A stretch of 39,619 nucleotides of DNA. It comes from Comamonadaceae bacterium. GTDB taxonomy: Bacteria; Pseudomonadota; Gammaproteobacteria; Burkholderiales; Burkholderiaceae_C. The position numbers were made by a program, and so were the translations under genes. The first letter of the stretch is position 1. Every line of letters begins with the position of its first letter. Positions 29,225-39,619 of the stretch are shown here, in pieces. Below the pieces are notes generated by a model that was given only the letters and a program-made list of their open reading frames with translations, was not told where the DNA came from and did no database searches. The DNA is taken from positions 1 through 39,619 of the forward strand of contig JAJTGH010000050.1 of assembly GCA_021299555.1 (NCBI GenBank), in the 5' to 3' direction.

Positions 29225-30802
<1,578 letters not shown>

Positions 30803-31663: not shown

Positions 31664-32299
31664 TTACCAGCGCATCACCTTAGGCCCTAGCCACTGCCCG
31701 ACCCATCCAGTCAGTGCGATTCCGAGCGAGTACCAAACTGCCACGAAGGCAACAGACGTCTCGGGGCAGGCCAATGAATACCCCATCGCACCCACTACGC
31801 CAGCGACCAATCCAGCCGCAAAACCTGCTTGCCTCAGCCGAGTCGGCGCGAGGCTGCGCATAGCCCAAAGAATTGCAGACAGCGCGGGTAACGAGAGCAT
31901 CATCAGCATCCAAGGACAGATCCACCACGTCTGCCCCAACAAAGCGGACCATCGCTCGCCCTCCGGAGTTGCGATCAAAGTCACAGCGCCAGCGAGCAGC
32001 ATCAGTAGGAAAACACCAACGACCGCCGCACGAGCCGTGATCGTCGAAGAAACGGGGCGGGACAGTCTCGCGGCCAAGGCGCTCGCCCCAGCCAGTAGCA
32101 GCACCGCGTAGACAAACTTGATCCACGGAGCTGCCGTGTAAAAAGCCGCCGCAGGCAAAGGGCCGATCAGAACCAGGGCAAGGACGCTGCTGGCCAGAAA
32201 CCCCAGGGCAGCAGCTGCCGCCAATCGGCGTCTCACAGGAAAGTCTGGCGCCGGGCCAGCCTGCCTTGCGAGCATTTCAATCAGAGTGTCGGTTTTCAC
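31664..32299 (-). CDS. NrsF/DUF1109-family membrane anti-sigma factor
   Basis: About six TM segments, 'TDTLIEMLARQAGP' N-terminus typical of DUF1109, two Cys-Pro sites ('WWICPWMLMM' and 'SLACPETSV'); starts by ATGA overlap with the upstream ECF sigma gene. Confidence 0.85.
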   Translation of the reverse strand: MKTDTLIEMLARQAGPAPDFPVRRRLAAAAALGFLASSVLALVLIGPLPAAAFYTAAPWIKFVYAVLLLAGASALAARLSRPVSSTITARAAVVGVFLLMLLAGAVTLIATPEGERWSALLGQTWWICPWMLMMLSLPALSAILWAMRSLAPTRLRQAGFAAGLVAGVVGAMGYSLACPETSVAFVAVWYSLGIALTGWVGQWLGPKVMRW

Positions 32300-32862
32300 G
32301 TGGGCTCCTTGCGGACGAGGGCCGCCAGACGCTTGAGGCCCCGATGAACCTGGACTTTGATCGCCGATTCCGAGACACCTGTCCGTATTGACGCCTGGGC
32401 AACACTCAAGCCTTCAAGTTTGGTCATCTCAATTGCAATGCGTTGGGCCTTTGGCAACTCTTGGAGGAGGCTGTGCAGATCAACGTTAGCCAGAGTTTCG
32501 CCTGGATCCTCGGCTGCCAGGTGTTCTTCCAACCCGTCAATCGGCTCATGCAGGGCTTCACGCCGTCCACGTCGGCGGTAAAGGTCCATCAATTTGTGGC
32601 GGGAAATGCCCAGCACCCAAGCTGACACGGGCTGTGTCGGGTCATAACTGCCACGGTGCAAATGCAGCGCTAGCAAAGTCTCCTGCACGAGGTCCTCTAC
32701 GTCGTCCGGCAGGTTCATCAGATGGCGACGAAAGTAGGAACGCAGTCGCCCCGCAATCAACCGAAGAGCTTTTTGGTACGACAACTCATCTCCTGATTGG
32801 GCGCGCAACCACAGCGGCTTCAGGCCGGACTCGAAGTCACTGTGTTGCGCGTCGTTCTTCAA
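32296..32862 (-). CDS. ECF RNA polymerase sigma factor (SigF-like, paired with NrsF); start codon uncertain
   Basis: Region 2 'DDVEDLVQETLLALHLHRGSYDPTQPVSAWVLGISRHKLMDLYRRRGRR', region 4 'LPKAQRIAIEMTKLEGLSVAQASIRTGVSESAIKVQVHRGLKRLAALV'. The called ORF extends to 33279, but that extension overlaps a divergent gene and two promoter elements; TTG candidates at 32862 and 32784. Confidence 0.85.
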   Translation of the reverse strand: MKNDAQHSDFESGLKPLWLRAQSGDELSYQKALRLIAGRLRSYFRRHLMNLPDDVEDLVQETLLALHLHRGSYDPTQPVSAWVLGISRHKLMDLYRRRGRREALHEPIDGLEEHLAAEDPGETLANVDLHSLLQELPKAQRIAIEMTKLEGLSVAQASIRTGVSESAIKVQVHRGLKRLAALVRKEPT

Positions 32863-32889
32863 TTCGTCGGAGATGATGGTTTGGTTACA
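32862..32889 (-). promoter_or_regulatory. ECF sigma (SigF-type) promoter, autoregulatory copy
   Basis: Minus strand reads TGTAAC-CAAACCATCATCTCCGA-CGAAT: -35-like TGTAAC, 17-nt spacer, -10-like CGAAT; same architecture as two other sites in the window. Confidence 0.75.
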
Positions 32890-32941
32890 CCCATCCAGTA
32901 CGGGCGGTATCTTTTTGCTGATCGGCTTCTGATCACCGTTA

Positions 32942-32969
32942 TGTAACCTTTGCCTTGTCCAGTGCGAAT
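32942..32969 (+). promoter_or_regulatory. ECF sigma (SigF-type) promoter upstream of DUF3047 gene
   Basis: TGTAAC-CTTTGCCTTGTCCAGTG-CGAAT, spacer 17 nt. Confidence 0.75.
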
Positions 32970-32979
32970 TATGGAGGAC

Positions 32980-33834
32980 ATGGACATCCTCCTGGTACCA
33001 CTCGATCGCAAGCGACCCGGCTTGGGGGCGGACATACGATTTCCGCTTGCCACCCTTAAGCCGCTGCACTCTCATCTTGTCCTTCCGGTCGTGTTTTCGG
33101 CCTTGATCGCATTGGCCGCACCGGTGTGTGCGAGCGTTGGCGCTGTGCCGCTTACGGATCCGGTATGGGTTCAGTGGGTGGGGCGATTCGATCTTGGTCT
33201 GGTTCCCTGGCAGGAGGTTCGGCTGAAGTCCGGCCAACGTCCCAACAGCTTCAGATTGACCCAGTGGGAGGGTGTCCACTCGGTCGAGGTCATTTCCCAG
33301 TCCAGCATGTCGCTGCTGGCCCGCCCCATCAGCGTTGACCTCGATGCCACCCCCGTCTTGTGCTGGCGTTGGCGCGTAGGCGCCTCATTGGCTCAGGCCG
33401 ACATGACGCGTAAGGAGGGTGACGATTACGCAGGAAGGGTTTATGTGAGCTTTCGGTTGCCTGCCTCCTCCATTGGCCTTGCGTTGCGTGCCCAACTGGC
33501 GGTGGCGCGGGCCATGTGGGGGCAGGACGTCCCCGATGCTGCGATCAATTACGTCTGGGACAACCGACAACCCGTCGGCACCACCCGCCCCAACGCTTAC
33601 ACAGATCGTGCTCAGATGGTTGTCTTGCGCAGCGGCGATCAGGATGCCGGGCGATGGGTCTGGGAGCGGGTTGACGTGCGCCGTGACGTGACCCGGCTCT
33701 TTGGGGCTGGAGCGCAGCCCATTCAATTGGCGATCACCGCTGATACCGATAACACCCAGTCTGCCGCGCAGTCAGGGTTTGCAGACCTCCATTTCGTGCC
33801 TGCAGACAAACCGTGTAATCGGCAGCACGGTTAG
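32980..33834 (+). CDS. DUF3047 family protein; start codon uncertain
   Basis: 'CWRWRVGASLAQADMTRKEGDDYAGRVYVSFRLP...AINYVWDNRQPVGTTRPNAYTDRAQMVVLRSGDQDAGRWVWERVDVRRDVTRLFG' matches DUF3047 style; hydrophobic export signal 'LVLPVVFSALIALAAPVCAS' near the N-terminus. Confidence 0.8.
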   Translation: MDILLVPLDRKRPGLGADIRFPLATLKPLHSHLVLPVVFSALIALAAPVCASVGAVPLTDPVWVQWVGRFDLGLVPWQEVRLKSGQRPNSFRLTQWEGVHSVEVISQSSMSLLARPISVDLDATPVLCWRWRVGASLAQADMTRKEGDDYAGRVYVSFRLPASSIGLALRAQLAVARAMWGQDVPDAAINYVWDNRQPVGTTRPNAYTDRAQMVVLRSGDQDAGRWVWERVDVRRDVTRLFGAGAQPIQLAITADTDNTQSAAQSGFADLHFVPADKPCNRQHG

Positions 33835-33851
33835 GACCCGGGAGTCGAGTT

Positions 33852-33879
33852 TGTAACTTTTCAGTCCGGCCCGACGAAT
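33852..33879 (+). promoter_or_regulatory. ECF sigma (SigF-type) promoter upstream of arsS cluster
   Basis: TGTAAC-TTTTCAGTCCGGCCCGA-CGAAT, spacer 17 nt; 32 nt between the -10-like element and the arsS ATG. Confidence 0.75.
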
Positions 33880-33911: not shown

Positions 33912-34919
33912 ATGCGACCCACCCTACCTCTTCTCGTCAAGACTGACTTTCCTGCGTTGCAGCGCAAGGTTTTGGAAACGCTGCAGATCAACCTGGGCTA
34001 CAAGTGCAACCAGACCTGTCTGCACTGCCATGTGAACGCAGGGCCCCATCGCACCGAAATGATGGACGAAGACACGGTCAAGTTGGTGCTGGCTGTTTTG
34101 AAGACACGCCACATCAAGACGGTGGATTTAACTGGTGGGGCGCCCGAGCTTAATGTCAACTTTCGCGCGCTCGTGCAACAGGCGCGCCAAATGGGGGCGC
34201 GGGTGATCGATCGCTGCAACCTGACCATCCTCTCGGAGCCTGGGCAGGAAGGGCTGGCAGAGTTCCTGGCCGAACAGGGCGTCGAAGTAACGGCTTCTCT
34301 ACCTTGCTATTCGCCTTCGAACGTGGATCGCCAGCGCGGAGATGGGGTGTTCGAGCGCAGCATCGCGGGCCTGCAATTGCTCAATGAACTGGGCTATGGA
34401 CAACCCGGTTCTGGCTTGACGCTCAACCTCGTCTACAACCCACAGGGTCCCGTGCTGCCACCCGCACAAGGTCCCCTCGAGGCCGACTACAAGCGGGAGC
34501 TGTGGCAGCACTTCGGCATCCGCTTCAATCAGTTGTTTGCCATCACCAACATGCCGGTGCAGCGTTTTGGCAGCACCCTCGTCAGCAAGGGTAGCTTTGA
34601 GGGCTACATGCGCCTGCTCAAGGACTCCTATCGCCCTGAAAATCTTGAGACGGTGATGTGCCGAACCCTTCTGAGTGTGGATTGGCAGGGTTACCTCTAC
34701 GACTGCGACTTCAACCAGATGCTGGGCATACCGGCTACGCTGGGGCCCGCATCAAGGCCGCACCTGCGCGACCTCCTTGGTGCCGATGTGACCGGCACCC
34801 CGATCCGCGTGGCGGACCATTGCTACGGTTGCACGGCTGGACAAGGCAGCAGTTGCGGTGGCGCCCTGGAAACTGAACCCAGCGGCCAGAAGCTCGCGTG
34901 CGCCGCCGGAGAGTCATGA
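33912..34919 (+). CDS. arsS: Arsenosugar biosynthesis radical SAM protein ArsS (radical SAM plus C-terminal DUF3641)
   Basis: 'LQINLGYKCNQTCLHCHVNAGPHRTEMM' CxxxCxxC, 'VDLTGGAPELN', 'CYSPSNVDRQRGDGVFERSI', C-terminal 'CRTLLSVDWQGYLYDCDFNQMLG...DHCYGCTAGQGSSCGGA'. Confidence 0.93.
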   Translation: MRPTLPLLVKTDFPALQRKVLETLQINLGYKCNQTCLHCHVNAGPHRTEMMDEDTVKLVLAVLKTRHIKTVDLTGGAPELNVNFRALVQQARQMGARVIDRCNLTILSEPGQEGLAEFLAEQGVEVTASLPCYSPSNVDRQRGDGVFERSIAGLQLLNELGYGQPGSGLTLNLVYNPQGPVLPPAQGPLEADYKRELWQHFGIRFNQLFAITNMPVQRFGSTLVSKGSFEGYMRLLKDSYRPENLETVMCRTLLSVDWQGYLYDCDFNQMLGIPATLGPASRPHLRDLLGADVTGTPIRVADHCYGCTAGQGSSCGGALETEPSGQKLACAAGES

Positions 34920-37084
34920 TGAGTGCGCCCCGACTTTGGGTCCGGTGGCTCTTGCTGTTGCTAGGTGGTCTGGTCCTGTGGATGGCCTACCGGCACTGGG
35001 ACCTAGGCCAGTGGCTGACCCTGGATCAGCTCAAGGCCAGCCGAGATACGCTGGCCAGCCTCTACACGAATCATCCGCTGCAGACGGCCCTTGCCTTTTT
35101 TGGGGTGTATGTTCTGGCTGCCGCGCTGTCATTTCCGGGCGCATCCATCCTCACCCTGGCTGCGGGTGCTATGTTTGGCTGGGCGCTGGGTCTTCTGCTG
35201 GTGTCGTTCGCCTCCAGCGTGGGTGCGCTGCTGGCTTTCTGGGTATCGCGTTACTTGCTGCGCGACTTCTTCCAGCAGCGCTTCGGCAAGCTGCTGCGGC
35301 CCATCAACGACGGGCTGGCCAAGGATGGCACGTTCTATCTCCTGACGCTGCGGCTGGTGCCCGTGTTTCCGTTCTGGCTGATCAACCTGCTGATGGGCCT
35401 GACCACGCTGGGGGCACGCAAGTTCTACATCGTCAGTCAGGTTGGGATGCTGGCGGGCACGGCGGTCTACGTCAACGCGGGCACCCAACTGGCGGCGATC
35501 GAATCGACGAGCGAAGTGCTGTCTCCCGGCCTGCTGGGGAGCCTGGCACTTCTGGGGGTGTTTCCGCTGCTGGCGAAGTTCGTGGTGGGCGCGCTGCAAA
35601 GGCGCAAGCTGTATGCGCGCTGGGAACGTCCCAAGCGTTTTGACCGCAACCTGGTGGTCATCGGGGCAGGCGCGGGCGGCCTGGTGTCGGCCTATATCGC
35701 CGCTGCCGTGAAGGCCAAGGTGACGCTGATTGAAGGCCACAAGATGGGCGGCGACTGCCTGAACTACGGCTGCGTGCCGAGCAAGGCCCTCATTCGCTCG
35801 GCCAAGGCGATCAAGCAACTGCGAAAGGCGCAGACCTTTGGGCTGCGGGACGCCCAGGGTACGGTGGACTTTGCCGCTGTGATGCAGCGGGTACACAGCG
35901 TGATTCGTGAGGTCGAGCCGCACGATTCGGTGGAGCGGTACACGGGGCTGGGGGTGCAGGTGCTGCAAGGACATGCGCGCATCACTTCGCCCTGGACCGT
36001 CGAGATGACGCTGGCCGATGGAGGCACCCAGACCCTGAGTACCCGCAACATCGTCATTGCCGCCGGGGCCAGCCCTTTCGTTCCGCCCATTCCTGGTTTG
36101 AAAGAGGCAGGCTTTCTGACCAGCGACACGGTATGGAACCTGACTGAACTGCCCCGCCGGCTGGTCGTGCTGGGCGGCGGCCCCATCGGCAGCGAACTGG
36201 CACAGAGCTTCGCGCGCCTGGGTAGCGAGGTGACACAGGTGGAGATGGCGCCGCGCATCATGGTGCGCGAAGACCCTGAAGTCAGCGAGTTGGTTGCAGC
36301 TTCGCTGCGCGCCGACGGGGTGAACATCCTGACCCGGCACCAGGCGGTGCGTGTGGAGATGGCCAATGGTGAAAAGCGCCTGATCGTCCAGCACGGTGGC
36401 GAGGAACTTGCCGTGCCTTTCGATGAACTGCTCTGTGCCGTAGGCCGCAGCCCGCGCGTCAGCGGTTATGGACTGGAAGAACTGGGCATTTCGCTCACGC
36501 CGCGCAAGACCATCGAGACCAACGACTACCTGCAAACGCTCTACCCCAACATCTACGCGGTGGGCGATGTGGCGGGTCCGTTCCAGTTCACCCACACGGC
36601 TGCACACCAGGCCTGGTATGCGGCGGTTAACGCCCTGTTTGGACGCTTCAAACGCTTCAAGGCCGACTACTCGGTCATCCCGTGGGCCACCTTCACCGAT
36701 CCGGAAGTGGCCCGCGTGGGCCTGTCGGAAACCGAAGCACAGGACAAAGGCATTGCCTTCGAGGTCACGAAATACGGCATCGACGACCTGGATCGTGCCA
36801 TTGCCGACGGCACCGCAGACGGTTTCGTCAAGGTTCTGACGGTGCCTGGCAAAGACAAGATTTTGGGCGTGACCATCGTCGGGGAACACGCGGGCGATCT
36901 TCTGGCTGAGTACGTGCTGGCCATGAAGCACGGCTTGGGCCTGAACAAGATCCTGGGCACCATCCACACCTACCCCACGCTCTCTGAAGCCAACAAGTAC
37001 GCAGCCGGCGAGTGGAAACGTGCACACGCGCCGCAGAGGGTCTTGGGCTGGTTGGAAAGGTTTCACGCTTGGGAGCGCGCATGA
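34916..37084 (+). CDS. Fusion of TVP38/TMEM64 membrane domain with mercuric reductase-like FAD/NAD(P) disulfide oxidoreductase
   Basis: N-terminus 'FFGVYVLAAALSFPGASILTLAAGAMFGWALGLLLVSFASSVGALLAFWVSRYLLRD' (TVP38); C-terminus 'NLVVIGAGAGGLVSAYIAAAVKAKVTLIEGHKMGGDCLNYGCVPSKALIRSAK' with redox CxxxxC and 'TIHTYPTLSEANKYAAGEWKR'. Confidence 0.93.
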   Translation: MMSAPRLWVRWLLLLLGGLVLWMAYRHWDLGQWLTLDQLKASRDTLASLYTNHPLQTALAFFGVYVLAAALSFPGASILTLAAGAMFGWALGLLLVSFASSVGALLAFWVSRYLLRDFFQQRFGKLLRPINDGLAKDGTFYLLTLRLVPVFPFWLINLLMGLTTLGARKFYIVSQVGMLAGTAVYVNAGTQLAAIESTSEVLSPGLLGSLALLGVFPLLAKFVVGALQRRKLYARWERPKRFDRNLVVIGAGAGGLVSAYIAAAVKAKVTLIEGHKMGGDCLNYGCVPSKALIRSAKAIKQLRKAQTFGLRDAQGTVDFAAVMQRVHSVIREVEPHDSVERYTGLGVQVLQGHARITSPWTVEMTLADGGTQTLSTRNIVIAAGASPFVPPIPGLKEAGFLTSDTVWNLTELPRRLVVLGGGPIGSELAQSFARLGSEVTQVEMAPRIMVREDPEVSELVAASLRADGVNILTRHQAVRVEMANGEKRLIVQHGGEELAVPFDELLCAVGRSPRVSGYGLEELGISLTPRKTIETNDYLQTLYPNIYAVGDVAGPFQFTHTAAHQAWYAAVNALFGRFKRFKADYSVIPWATFTDPEVARVGLSETEAQDKGIAFEVTKYGIDDLDRAIADGTADGFVKVLTVPGKDKILGVTIVGEHAGDLLAEYVLAMKHGLGLNKILGTIHTYPTLSEANKYAAGEWKRAHAPQRVLGWLERFHAWERA

Positions 37085-37908
37085 GGCTCACACGGCGTCA
37101 ATGCATGTCAGTGCTCGGCGTCACCGCGTTCGCCCCCCTGGTGCTGGCGCAGACTTTCGACCACACCCACGCAGCCTGGAACCGCTTGGTCAAATCGCTC
37201 GTGGTGGTGCAACGTGGCGGCCGCGCCTCCCAGGTACGTTACGCCGGGTTCCTGGCGCAAAGGGGCGCGTTGCAGGACTACCTACGTCAACTCTCGGCGG
37301 TGCCTCGGGTGAATTTCGAGGCATTCACCCGGGCGCAGCAAATGGCGTTCTTGATCAACGCCTACAACGCCTTCACCGTCGAGTTGATCCTGACGCGCTA
37401 CCCGCGTCTCGCATCCATCAAGGACCTGGGCAACTGGCTGTCCACCCCCTGGAAGTTGCGCTGGATTGCGCTGTTGGGTGAGACGGTCTCGCTCGACGAT
37501 ATCGAACACGGCATGCTTCGCAAGCGCGGCGTGTACAACGATCCACGCATCCACTTTGCGGTGAACTGTGCCTCCATCGGCTGCCCCATGCTGCGCGAGG
37601 AAGCTTACGTTCCCGAGCTGATTGACCAGCAGCTGGATGCGCAAATGCAGCGCTTCATGGCTGACCGGGAACGCAACCGCTGGAACCCGAAGACTGAACA
37701 GCTAGAACTGTCACGCATCTTCGACTGGTATGCCGAGGACTTCCGGCTGGGCCACCAAGGCATCTATTCCTTGCATGGGTTGGCGGCTCGCTTCGCCGAC
37801 GCTCTGGCTGACGTCGAAGCCGACCGCGCCCGCATCCGCTCCACCCAGGTGTTGATCACCTACCTGGACTATGACTGGCGCCTCAATGACGCCAAGGGAA
37901 CGCCATGA
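37081..37908 (+). CDS. DUF547 domain protein with signal peptide
   Basis: 'RAQQMAFLINAYNAFTVELILTRYPRLASIKDLG', 'DDIEHGMLRKRGVYNDPRIHFAVNCASIGCPMLREEAYVPELIDQQLDAQMQRFMAD'. Confidence 0.92.
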   Translation: MRLTRRQCMSVLGVTAFAPLVLAQTFDHTHAAWNRLVKSLVVVQRGGRASQVRYAGFLAQRGALQDYLRQLSAVPRVNFEAFTRAQQMAFLINAYNAFTVELILTRYPRLASIKDLGNWLSTPWKLRWIALLGETVSLDDIEHGMLRKRGVYNDPRIHFAVNCASIGCPMLREEAYVPELIDQQLDAQMQRFMADRERNRWNPKTEQLELSRIFDWYAEDFRLGHQGIYSLHGLAARFADALADVEADRARIRSTQVLITYLDYDWRLNDAKGTP

Positions 37909-38585
37909 GCGCAGTCGCCTTGTCGATCATTGTCCCGGTACTGAACGAGGCCGCTGGCATTGAAGCCACCCTGCGTGCCTTGGCTCACCTGAGGCAACAG
38001 GGCGCCGAGGTGATCGTGGTGGACGGCGGTAGCCACGATGACACCTTCCATCAGGCCCAGGCGCATGCCTCGGTCGTACTCACCGCGCCGCGTGGCCGGG
38101 CGAGGCAAATGAATGCGGGGGCGGCGAAGGCACGGGGCGAGGTGTTGCTGTTCCTGCATGCCGACACCCAACTGCCGCCACAGGCCGACCGGCTTGTGCT
38201 GGACGCTATCGCAGCCGGTGCGGTGTGGGGGCGCTTTGACGTCCGGATCGTCGGCTCCGCCTGGATGTTGCGCGTCGTCGCGGCGCTCATGAATGCCCGC
38301 TCTCGTCTGAGCGGGATCGCCACCGGCGACCAGGCCCTGTTCGTGCGGCGCGACACCTTCGAACGCATCGGCGGTTTCCCCGAGCAGCCACTGATGGAGG
38401 ATATCGAACTCTCCAAGCGGCTACGCCAATGGGCGCGACCGGCCTGCCTGCGTGCCCAGGTGGCCACCTCTGGCCGGCGTTGGGAAAGCCGCGGCGTGTG
38501 GACGACCATCCTTCTGATGTGGCGCCTGCGCTGGCGCTATTGGCGCGGCGAATCCCCCGAGCGACTGGCAGAGGCTTACCGATGA
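37905..38585 (+). CDS. TIGR04283-type (arsenosugar-associated) family 2 glycosyltransferase
   Basis: 'LSIIVPVLNEAAGIEATLRALAHLRQQGAEVIVVDGGSHDDT...ARQMNAGAAKARGEVLLFLHADTQLP', 'GDQALFVRRDTFERIGGFPEQPLMEDIELSKRLR'. Confidence 0.92.
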   Translation: MSAVALSIIVPVLNEAAGIEATLRALAHLRQQGAEVIVVDGGSHDDTFHQAQAHASVVLTAPRGRARQMNAGAAKARGEVLLFLHADTQLPPQADRLVLDAIAAGAVWGRFDVRIVGSAWMLRVVAALMNARSRLSGIATGDQALFVRRDTFERIGGFPEQPLMEDIELSKRLRQWARPACLRAQVATSGRRWESRGVWTTILLMWRLRWRYWRGESPERLAEAYR

Positions 38586-39205
38586 CCACCGCCCTGATCG
38601 TCTTTGCCAAGGCCCCTGTGGCCGGGTTGGCCAAAACCCGCCTGATCCCTGCACTGGGCCCTGAGGGCGCTGCCAATCTGGCTGAGCGTTTGCTGGAACA
38701 CACCCTGCAGCAGGCGCGGGCCCTGCCCGTCGAGCACCTCGAGTTGTGCGTTTCGCCCAACGACCAGCACCCGGCGTTCGGTCGTGCCTGCGACGTGTCG
38801 GGTGACCGTTTGCATCTCACGCTGCAGGGCGAAGGCGATCTGGGCCAGCGCATGTACCGGGCCTTGAGCCGGGTGCTGTCCGTACACCGCCGTGCCTTGT
38901 TGATCGGTACCGACGCCCCGGCGCTCGATGCCCGCATCTTGGCGCAGGCCGAACAGGCGCTCGATCTGGCTCCTGCCGTGTTCGTGCCTGCACTCGATGG
39001 GGGTTACGCACTCGTCGGCCTGACGCGCCCCGTACCAGAGCTGTTCCTGGACATGACCTGGAGTACGCCCCAGGTCATGCAGGACACCCGTGCCAGGGCT
39101 CGAAAGATCGGTTTGCCCTGGACGGAACTGCCGGCCGTGCCAGACATCGACGAGCCGGCAGACCTGGCGCACTTGCCGGAGGGCTGGCTGCCATGCAACG
39201 CGTGA
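38582..39205 (+). CDS. TIGR04282-type (arsenosugar-associated) DUF2064 glycosyltransferase/nucleotidyltransferase-like protein
   Basis: 'ALIVFAKAPVAGLAKTRLIPALGPEGAANLAERLLEHTL', 'LIGTDAPALDARILAQAEQAL...VFVPALDGGYALVGL'; overlaps preceding gene (ATGA). Confidence 0.92.
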   Translation: MTTALIVFAKAPVAGLAKTRLIPALGPEGAANLAERLLEHTLQQARALPVEHLELCVSPNDQHPAFGRACDVSGDRLHLTLQGEGDLGQRMYRALSRVLSVHRRALLIGTDAPALDARILAQAEQALDLAPAVFVPALDGGYALVGLTRPVPELFLDMTWSTPQVMQDTRARARKIGLPWTELPAVPDIDEPADLAHLPEGWLPCNA

Positions 39206-39619
39206 TATTGGCCGGTGCGGGCCATGCCCATGCCCAGGTACTGCAAGCCTGGTCGCAGGAGCCTCTGGCCGGCGTCGATCTGGTGGTGGTGTCGCCCCAG
39301 GCGCTGGCCCCCTATTCGGGCATGGTGCCCGGATGGCTGGCAGGCACCTATGGGTTCGAGGAGATCGTCATCGACTTCCCGGCCCTGTGCGGTCGAGCGG
39401 GTGCGCGCTGGGTGTCGGCAGCCATTGACCGCCTGGACCCTGATACACAGTGCGTGCACCTGGACAACGGTGAATCGCTCCGCTACGACTGGTTGTCGCT
39501 CAACACCGGCTCGACACTGACCCCGCCGGAAGGCGAGTCTTCGGCCCATGTGTTGTCCATGCGGCCCTTGTCTCAATTGCGAACCCGCTACGACCGGCTC
39601 CTTGAGGACTGGCGCAAGG
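39193..39619 (+). CDS. FAD-dependent pyridine nucleotide-disulfide oxidoreductase resembling the SelD-associated (TIGR03169-like) family; truncated by window end
   Basis: Own translation from ATG 39193 with no stop to the window end: 'MQRVILAGAGHAHAQVLQAWSQEPLAGVDLVVVSPQALAPYSGMVPGWLAGTYGFEEIVIDFPALCGRAGARWVSAAIDRLDPDTQ'; absent from the ORF track because it is open-ended. Confidence 0.82.
   Translation, partial: MQRVILAGAGHAHAQVLQAWSQEPLAGVDLVVVSPQALAPYSGMVPGWLAGTYGFEEIVIDFPALCGRAGARWVSAAIDRLDPDTQCVHLDNGESLRYDWLSLNTGSTLTPPEGESSAHVLSMRPLSQLRTRYDRLLEDWRK

Follow-up and report, generated by a model that had tools for sequence, protein, structure and literature searches.

The window, a stretch of 39,619 nucleotides from a Comamonadaceae bacterium, encodes an ECF sigma factor with an adjoining NrsF anti-sigma factor and, on the opposite strand, a DUF3047 protein followed by an arsS-type cluster. 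The question raised by this arrangement is which genes the sigma factor serves. An earlier note on this DNA had proposed that three promoters of identical architecture join the sigma factor to the DUF3047 gene and the arsS operon, and that the sigma factor autoregulates. Our analysis makes it highly likely that the locus represents an ECF16 (SigF/NrsF) stress regulon with the DUF3047 gene and the arsS-VTT/reductase-DUF547-GT-GT-FAD cluster as targets; the autoregulation step calls for a different assessment.

Genes of the locus

The features of the locus are compiled in Table 1. The sigma/anti-sigma pair shows the characteristics of ECF16 (SigF/NrsF) systems, i.e., sigma regions 2 and 4, an adjoining NrsF, two cysteines approximately 50 residues apart, and consensus promoters at its own operon and at the targets. 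NrsF is a multi-helix membrane protein whose two sensor cysteines are C128 and C178; in the published ECF16 systems, the conserved anti-sigma cysteines are C129/C179 and C131/C181, the latter pair being that of Caulobacter. With the stricter NCBIfam equivalog model, NrsF of the window reaches 129.6 bits, which is below the cut-off of 300 bits.

Table 1. Coordinates of the predicted genes and promoter sites within the window
Feature	Position	Strand	Description
NrsF anti-sigma factor	31664..32299	-	PF06532, 4.1e-54, full length; GTG start
ECF sigma factor gene, ECF16/SigF type	32296..32862	-	Sigma70_r2 and Sigma70_r4_2 (Pfam), above cut-off; clade with 12 relatives, support 99/96; probable start TTG 32862, alternative in-frame TTG 32808
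ECF16-type promoter site 1, sigma side	32862..32889	-	TGTAAC-N17-CGAAT; -10 abuts probable TTG start codon of sigma gene
ECF16-type promoter site 2, divergent, before DUF3047	32942..32969	+	TGTAAC-N17-CGAAT
DUF3047 protein	32971..33834	+	PF11249, 5.3e-66; start ATG 32971 or 32980; signal-peptide-like hydrophobic N-terminal stretch
ECF16-type promoter site 3	33852..33879	+	TGTAAC-N17-CGAAT; 60 bp 5' of arsS ATG
ArsS-family radical SAM protein	33912..34919	+	TIGR04167, 1.4e-139, 464.6 bits (curated cut-off 300)
VTT (TVP38-like) membrane domain fused to FAD-dependent pyridine nucleotide-disulphide reductase	34919..37084	+	PF09335, PF07992, PF02852
DUF547 protein	37081..37908	+	PF04784
TIGR04283 family glycosyltransferase	37905..38585	+	NCBIfam match
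TIGR04282 family glycosyltransferase	38582..39205	+	NCBIfam match
FAD oxidoreductase related to SelD-fused proteins	39193..39619	+	TIGR03169-like; cut by contig end at 39619

The DUF3047 protein belongs with the arsS cluster, because its gene lies within arsS-type clusters in G056 and at locus L050, where no sigma gene is nearby, and directly 3' of nrsF in G339. Its predicted structure is a confident β-sandwich (pLDDT of 87). The comparison of this model with PDB folds returned distant carbohydrate-binding jelly-roll matches with TM scores by query of at most 0.43, which was too weak for a functional assignment.

The description of the cluster as arsenosugar-type in the earlier note was borne out for the enzyme family, as ArsS exceeds the cut-off of TIGR04167, a radical SAM family that it has in common with the ArsS of oxo-arsenosugar biosynthesis. 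Beyond this point, "arsenosugar" is here only an NCBIfam family name, so that an arsenosugar is no more than a putative product of the cluster; no ArsM partner exceeded the curated cut-off of the single model used (NF008823) in the 11 genomes tested, the window's own genome being 83% complete. The latter contains a second arsS gene at a contig end (G000:C7:62-1018, L341), with only 61 bp of upstream sequence.

Outside this region, the seryl-tRNA synthetase gene of the window (29225-30365) is broken, with model positions 238 to 304 missing and a frame shift at about 29987. Since it is the only substantial serS match in the genome and serS of the related genome G400 is intact, an assembly deletion is likely.

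Three promoter sites and their conservation

A pattern search for TGTAAC-N15..19-CGAAT returned exactly three matches in the window, all with a spacer of 17 nucleotides and with the coordinates and strands reported previously. Site 2 is located 2 to 11 bp from the first possible start codons of DUF3047. The motif equals the consensus of known SigF-type promoters, as had been suggested: Caulobacter SigF uses GTAACC-N16-CGAA, whose spacing is identical to that in the window (PMC3511200), and the ECF16 consensus is (T/C)GTAAC-N17-CGAA (PMC8315932). Among 39 sites from many loci, preferences beyond the selected words were found for C or T after TGTAAC and for T or C followed by T after CGAA.

That the three sites are similar words without function, produced by chance or base composition, has a practically negligible probability. 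Shuffled versions of the window contained on average 0.02 matches, none of the 100 shuffles contained three, and the number of TGTAAC-N17-CGAAT matches expected from base composition in 1018 bp is 1.4e-4. In the entire genome (2.97 Mb in 217 contigs), the window sites are the only N17 copies, one extra match having a spacer of N15; a background frequency of the motif, which would have counted against the earlier proposal, was not observed. A general over-representation in the genome was rejected, as the relaxed pattern GTAAC-N17-CGAA is rarer than its reversed control (10 versus 25 matches). What is special is therefore the clustering at this locus, with three of the 10 relaxed matches packed within 1 kb. 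The other seven sit elsewhere without a visible link, a point in favor of chance; against chance stand, besides the shuffles and the expected number, the conservation of the sites across families with unrelated spacers and the order-wide association with arsS described below.

Conservation at orthologous loci, which the note had named as a check, was evident. Genome G400, of the same genus and with a 90% identical sigma factor, matches the window in gene order and has each of the three sites in exact form (L197); in its DUF3047-arsS gap, the -35 element and CGAAT are kept and bases inside the spacer are changed. In G008, three sites are present, two of which are altered (GGTAAC...CGAAG at DUF3047 and CGTAT at arsS). 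In G390, which retains the order sigma-DUF3047-arsS, both divergent sites read TGTAAC-N17-CGAC (CGACA). Counterparts of site 1 were found in these three genomes (CGACA variant in G390), in G275, G305, and G277 (CGACA variant), and in others. In more distant families, the divergent gene is arsS itself (G275, G305, G277, G339, and G167), and in G336 the motif still precedes arsS, even though the latter is 3.5 kb away. Sites approximately 60 to 70 bp 5' of arsS occur in G275, G305, G277, G336, G217, G335, and G041. Across these other families, the -35 and -10 elements are constant, whereas the spacers are wholly different. The motif is absent from DUF3047 homologues of near relatives at large and present only at orthologues adjoining the sigma gene, so that DUF3047 alone was discarded as a marker of the motif.

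The association with arsS was analyzed in an order-wide sample of 299 genomes, of which 26 contain relatives of the sigma factor (E ≤ 1e-30) and 94 contain arsS. The 300 bp upstream of all arsS genes were searched for [TC]GTAAC-N17-CG[AT][ACG]. This motif was present at 7 of 18 arsS loci in sigma-positive genomes versus 1 of 79 in sigma-negative genomes, the latter being a weaker match (Fisher p = 1.8e-5, ignoring shared ancestry; among the seven motif-positive genomes, two pairs share a genus). The reversed control pattern occurred once in the same regions. In six of the seven sigma-positive loci, the motif is positioned 60 to 68 bp before the ArsS start, and in G167 this distance is 246 bp. 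As the remaining 11 arsS loci of sigma-positive genomes are without the motif, arsS is not always a target. A betaproteobacterial metagenome-assembled genome likewise has a site, TGTAAC-N17-CGAC, at a distance of 59 bp 5' of arsS (L105:8780).

In G275, G305, and G336, the arsS promoter alone matches TGTAAC-N17-CGAAY in the entire genome. A thioredoxin/DsbD pair adjoins the sigma gene of G217, where the second of only two exact matches in the genome precedes an arsS gene located on another contig. A bufferin operon adjoins the sigma gene in both G335 and G041, and arsS, again on another contig, carries the motif. Because the motif is found at arsS with the sigma gene elsewhere, neighborhood alone does not explain the association. 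The recurrence of the same sigma-arsS link in other families, even without gene adjacency, argues for a real regulon.

The sites might also be real promoters read by another ECF sigma factor of the genome. In favor of this, ECF promoters can be common to several sigma factors, and the genome is 83% complete. This explanation is nevertheless most improbable, given that the motif is the ECF16 consensus, that its occurrence at arsS is confined, bar the one weaker match, to genomes with this sigma family, and that site and sigma gene remain together in many families.

We therefore prefer SigF as the regulator: the identity with the ECF16 consensus (PMC3511200, PMC8315932, PMC3420878), the synteny in G400, the arsS association, the cases in trans, the sigma tree presented below, and the NrsF cysteines all indicate that SigF very probably switches on the neighboring DUF3047 gene and the arsS-type cluster. 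The comparative data thus support the regulon proposed in the earlier note. By analogy with described relatives, NrsF, itself a membrane protein with two conserved cysteines, would hold the sigma factor until envelope stress caused by metals or thiol-reactive agents releases it. RNA polymerase with SigF would then initiate at TGTAAC-N17-CGAAT, divergently at DUF3047 and sigF-nrsF and also inside the DUF3047-arsS gap, from where the arsS operon would be driven.

A probable sigma start codon within its own promoter

The autoregulation claim is upheld only in part: a conserved site is present at the sigma operon itself, but the probable sigF start codon, TTG 32862, overlaps the -10 element of site 1 (region 32806-32889, minus strand), which makes simple autoregulation of SigF doubtful. 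Judging from this geometry, the SigF-driven transcript probably begins downstream of the sigF start codon, and the operon may be subject to transcriptional autoregulation that yields no additional SigF. In 9 of 13 members of the sigma clade described below (G008 read by eye), the start codon is positioned exactly 4 nucleotides after the C of CGAA or CGAC; it is ATG in this geometry, with TTG in the window and in G400, and the base after CGAA is often A rather than the usual T or C.

It is thus a realistic, if tentatively held, possibility that the sigma-side site does not raise SigF, the transcript giving mainly NrsF as a negative feedback and SigF being supplied from an upstream constitutive promoter. 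Besides the conserved geometry, no Shine-Dalgarno sequence was seen before sigF in the window, whereas AAGGAG precedes the GTG start of nrsF as a good ribosome-binding site; a transcript that lacks the sigF start codon and carries such an nrsF makes feedback via NrsF plausible. Similarly, the mapped start site of ecfF of Bradyrhizobium japonicum, 6 bp after the -10 element, overlaps the annotated ATG (PMC3420878), and Caulobacter sigF was reported not to be strongly autoregulated (PMC3511200). On the other hand, a downstream start codon could serve, as was proposed for ecfF (PMC3420878), and in G217 the transcript would include an in-frame ATG located 14 nucleotides past the -10 C. Negative feedback would alter only the autoregulation step of the SigF regulon outlined above and is compatible with the rest of it. 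If confirmed, such an overlap of start codon and promoter would represent an unusual feedback design.

The sigma tree and known ECF16 systems

In the sigma tree, most arsS-linked sigma factors fall into one supported clade, which consists of the protein of the window and 12 others (support 99/96). Eleven of these 13 genes adjoin arsS, DUF3047, or the VTT-reductase gene, and two adjoin thioredoxin/DsbD genes. The arsS-linked sigma factors of G167 and G354 are placed inside a bufferin branch outside this clade, which points to repeated origins, or to a regain, of the link with arsS. Elsewhere, the divergent promoter precedes DUF2282-MNIO-DUF2063-DoxX (bufferin) operons, genes for a molybdopterin oxidoreductase (YedY) and cytochrome b561, or thioredoxin-DsbD genes.

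The described NrsF/ECF16 systems control known stress operons (PMC3511200, PMC8315932). Among the closest, SigF-NrsF of Caulobacter crescentus has the same promoter, the same order of an ECF sigma gene followed by DUF1109/NrsF, and an equivalent cysteine pair (C131/C181), whereas it controls two DUF2282-DUF692-DUF2063 operons of the bufferin type plus a YedY-like gene, with neither DUF3047 nor arsS among its targets (PMC3511200). BcrS-AbcS of Brucella melitensis likewise combines (T/C)GTAAC-N17-CGAA with an adjoining target operon, which differs in being bcrXQP, encoding a methionine-rich MXKDX peptide and an MsrPQ-like reductase, and is induced by hypochlorous acid (PMC8315932). EcfF-OsrA of B. 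japonicum shares the cysteine-dependent anti-sigma factor and an ecfF start overlapping the annotated start codon, as is predicted for the window, but responds to H2O2 and singlet oxygen, with targets including periplasmic thioredoxin and DsbD-like genes (PMC3420878). Sigma and NrsF genes were also reported in Buf1 clusters (PMC12452194), and at the loci analyzed here, operons of this type have the identical divergent motif in front of them; these clusters encode copper-binding RiPP peptides with MNIO enzymes and, unlike the window, no ArsS.

In a literature search that stopped short of the large ECF classification papers, no link of ECF16/NrsF with arsS or DUF3047 was found. This agrees with the earlier suggestion of an undescribed ECF-controlled arsS cluster, and we provisionally regard the target set as new for a known type of regulator. 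Elsewhere, the regulator type found at the arsS cluster controls copper-binding bufferins, YedY-like enzymes, and periplasmic thioredoxins, which suggests a role of the cluster's product in defending the envelope from stress by metals or oxidants. A more far-reaching reading, which we consider rather unlikely, is that a separate ECF16 branch is dedicated to the arsS-DUF3047 cluster as an envelope redox/metal defense and not (only) to arsenic metabolism, with the start codon fused to the -10 element such that SigF-dependent transcription would make anti-sigma and not sigma factor. With arsS in 94 of the 299 sampled genomes, the cluster is widespread in the order, and the small regulon with its known promoter makes the inducing signal directly testable.

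Two further arrangements were noted. One sigF locus (L175:9255-10000) contains two nrsF genes and, in front of its subsequent genes, additional copies of the motif. At L170:7821 and L172:4374, the motif occurs after sigF-nrsF, before genes including one for a protein of HD-type sequence and a DsbD-like gene, which may represent a further target set.
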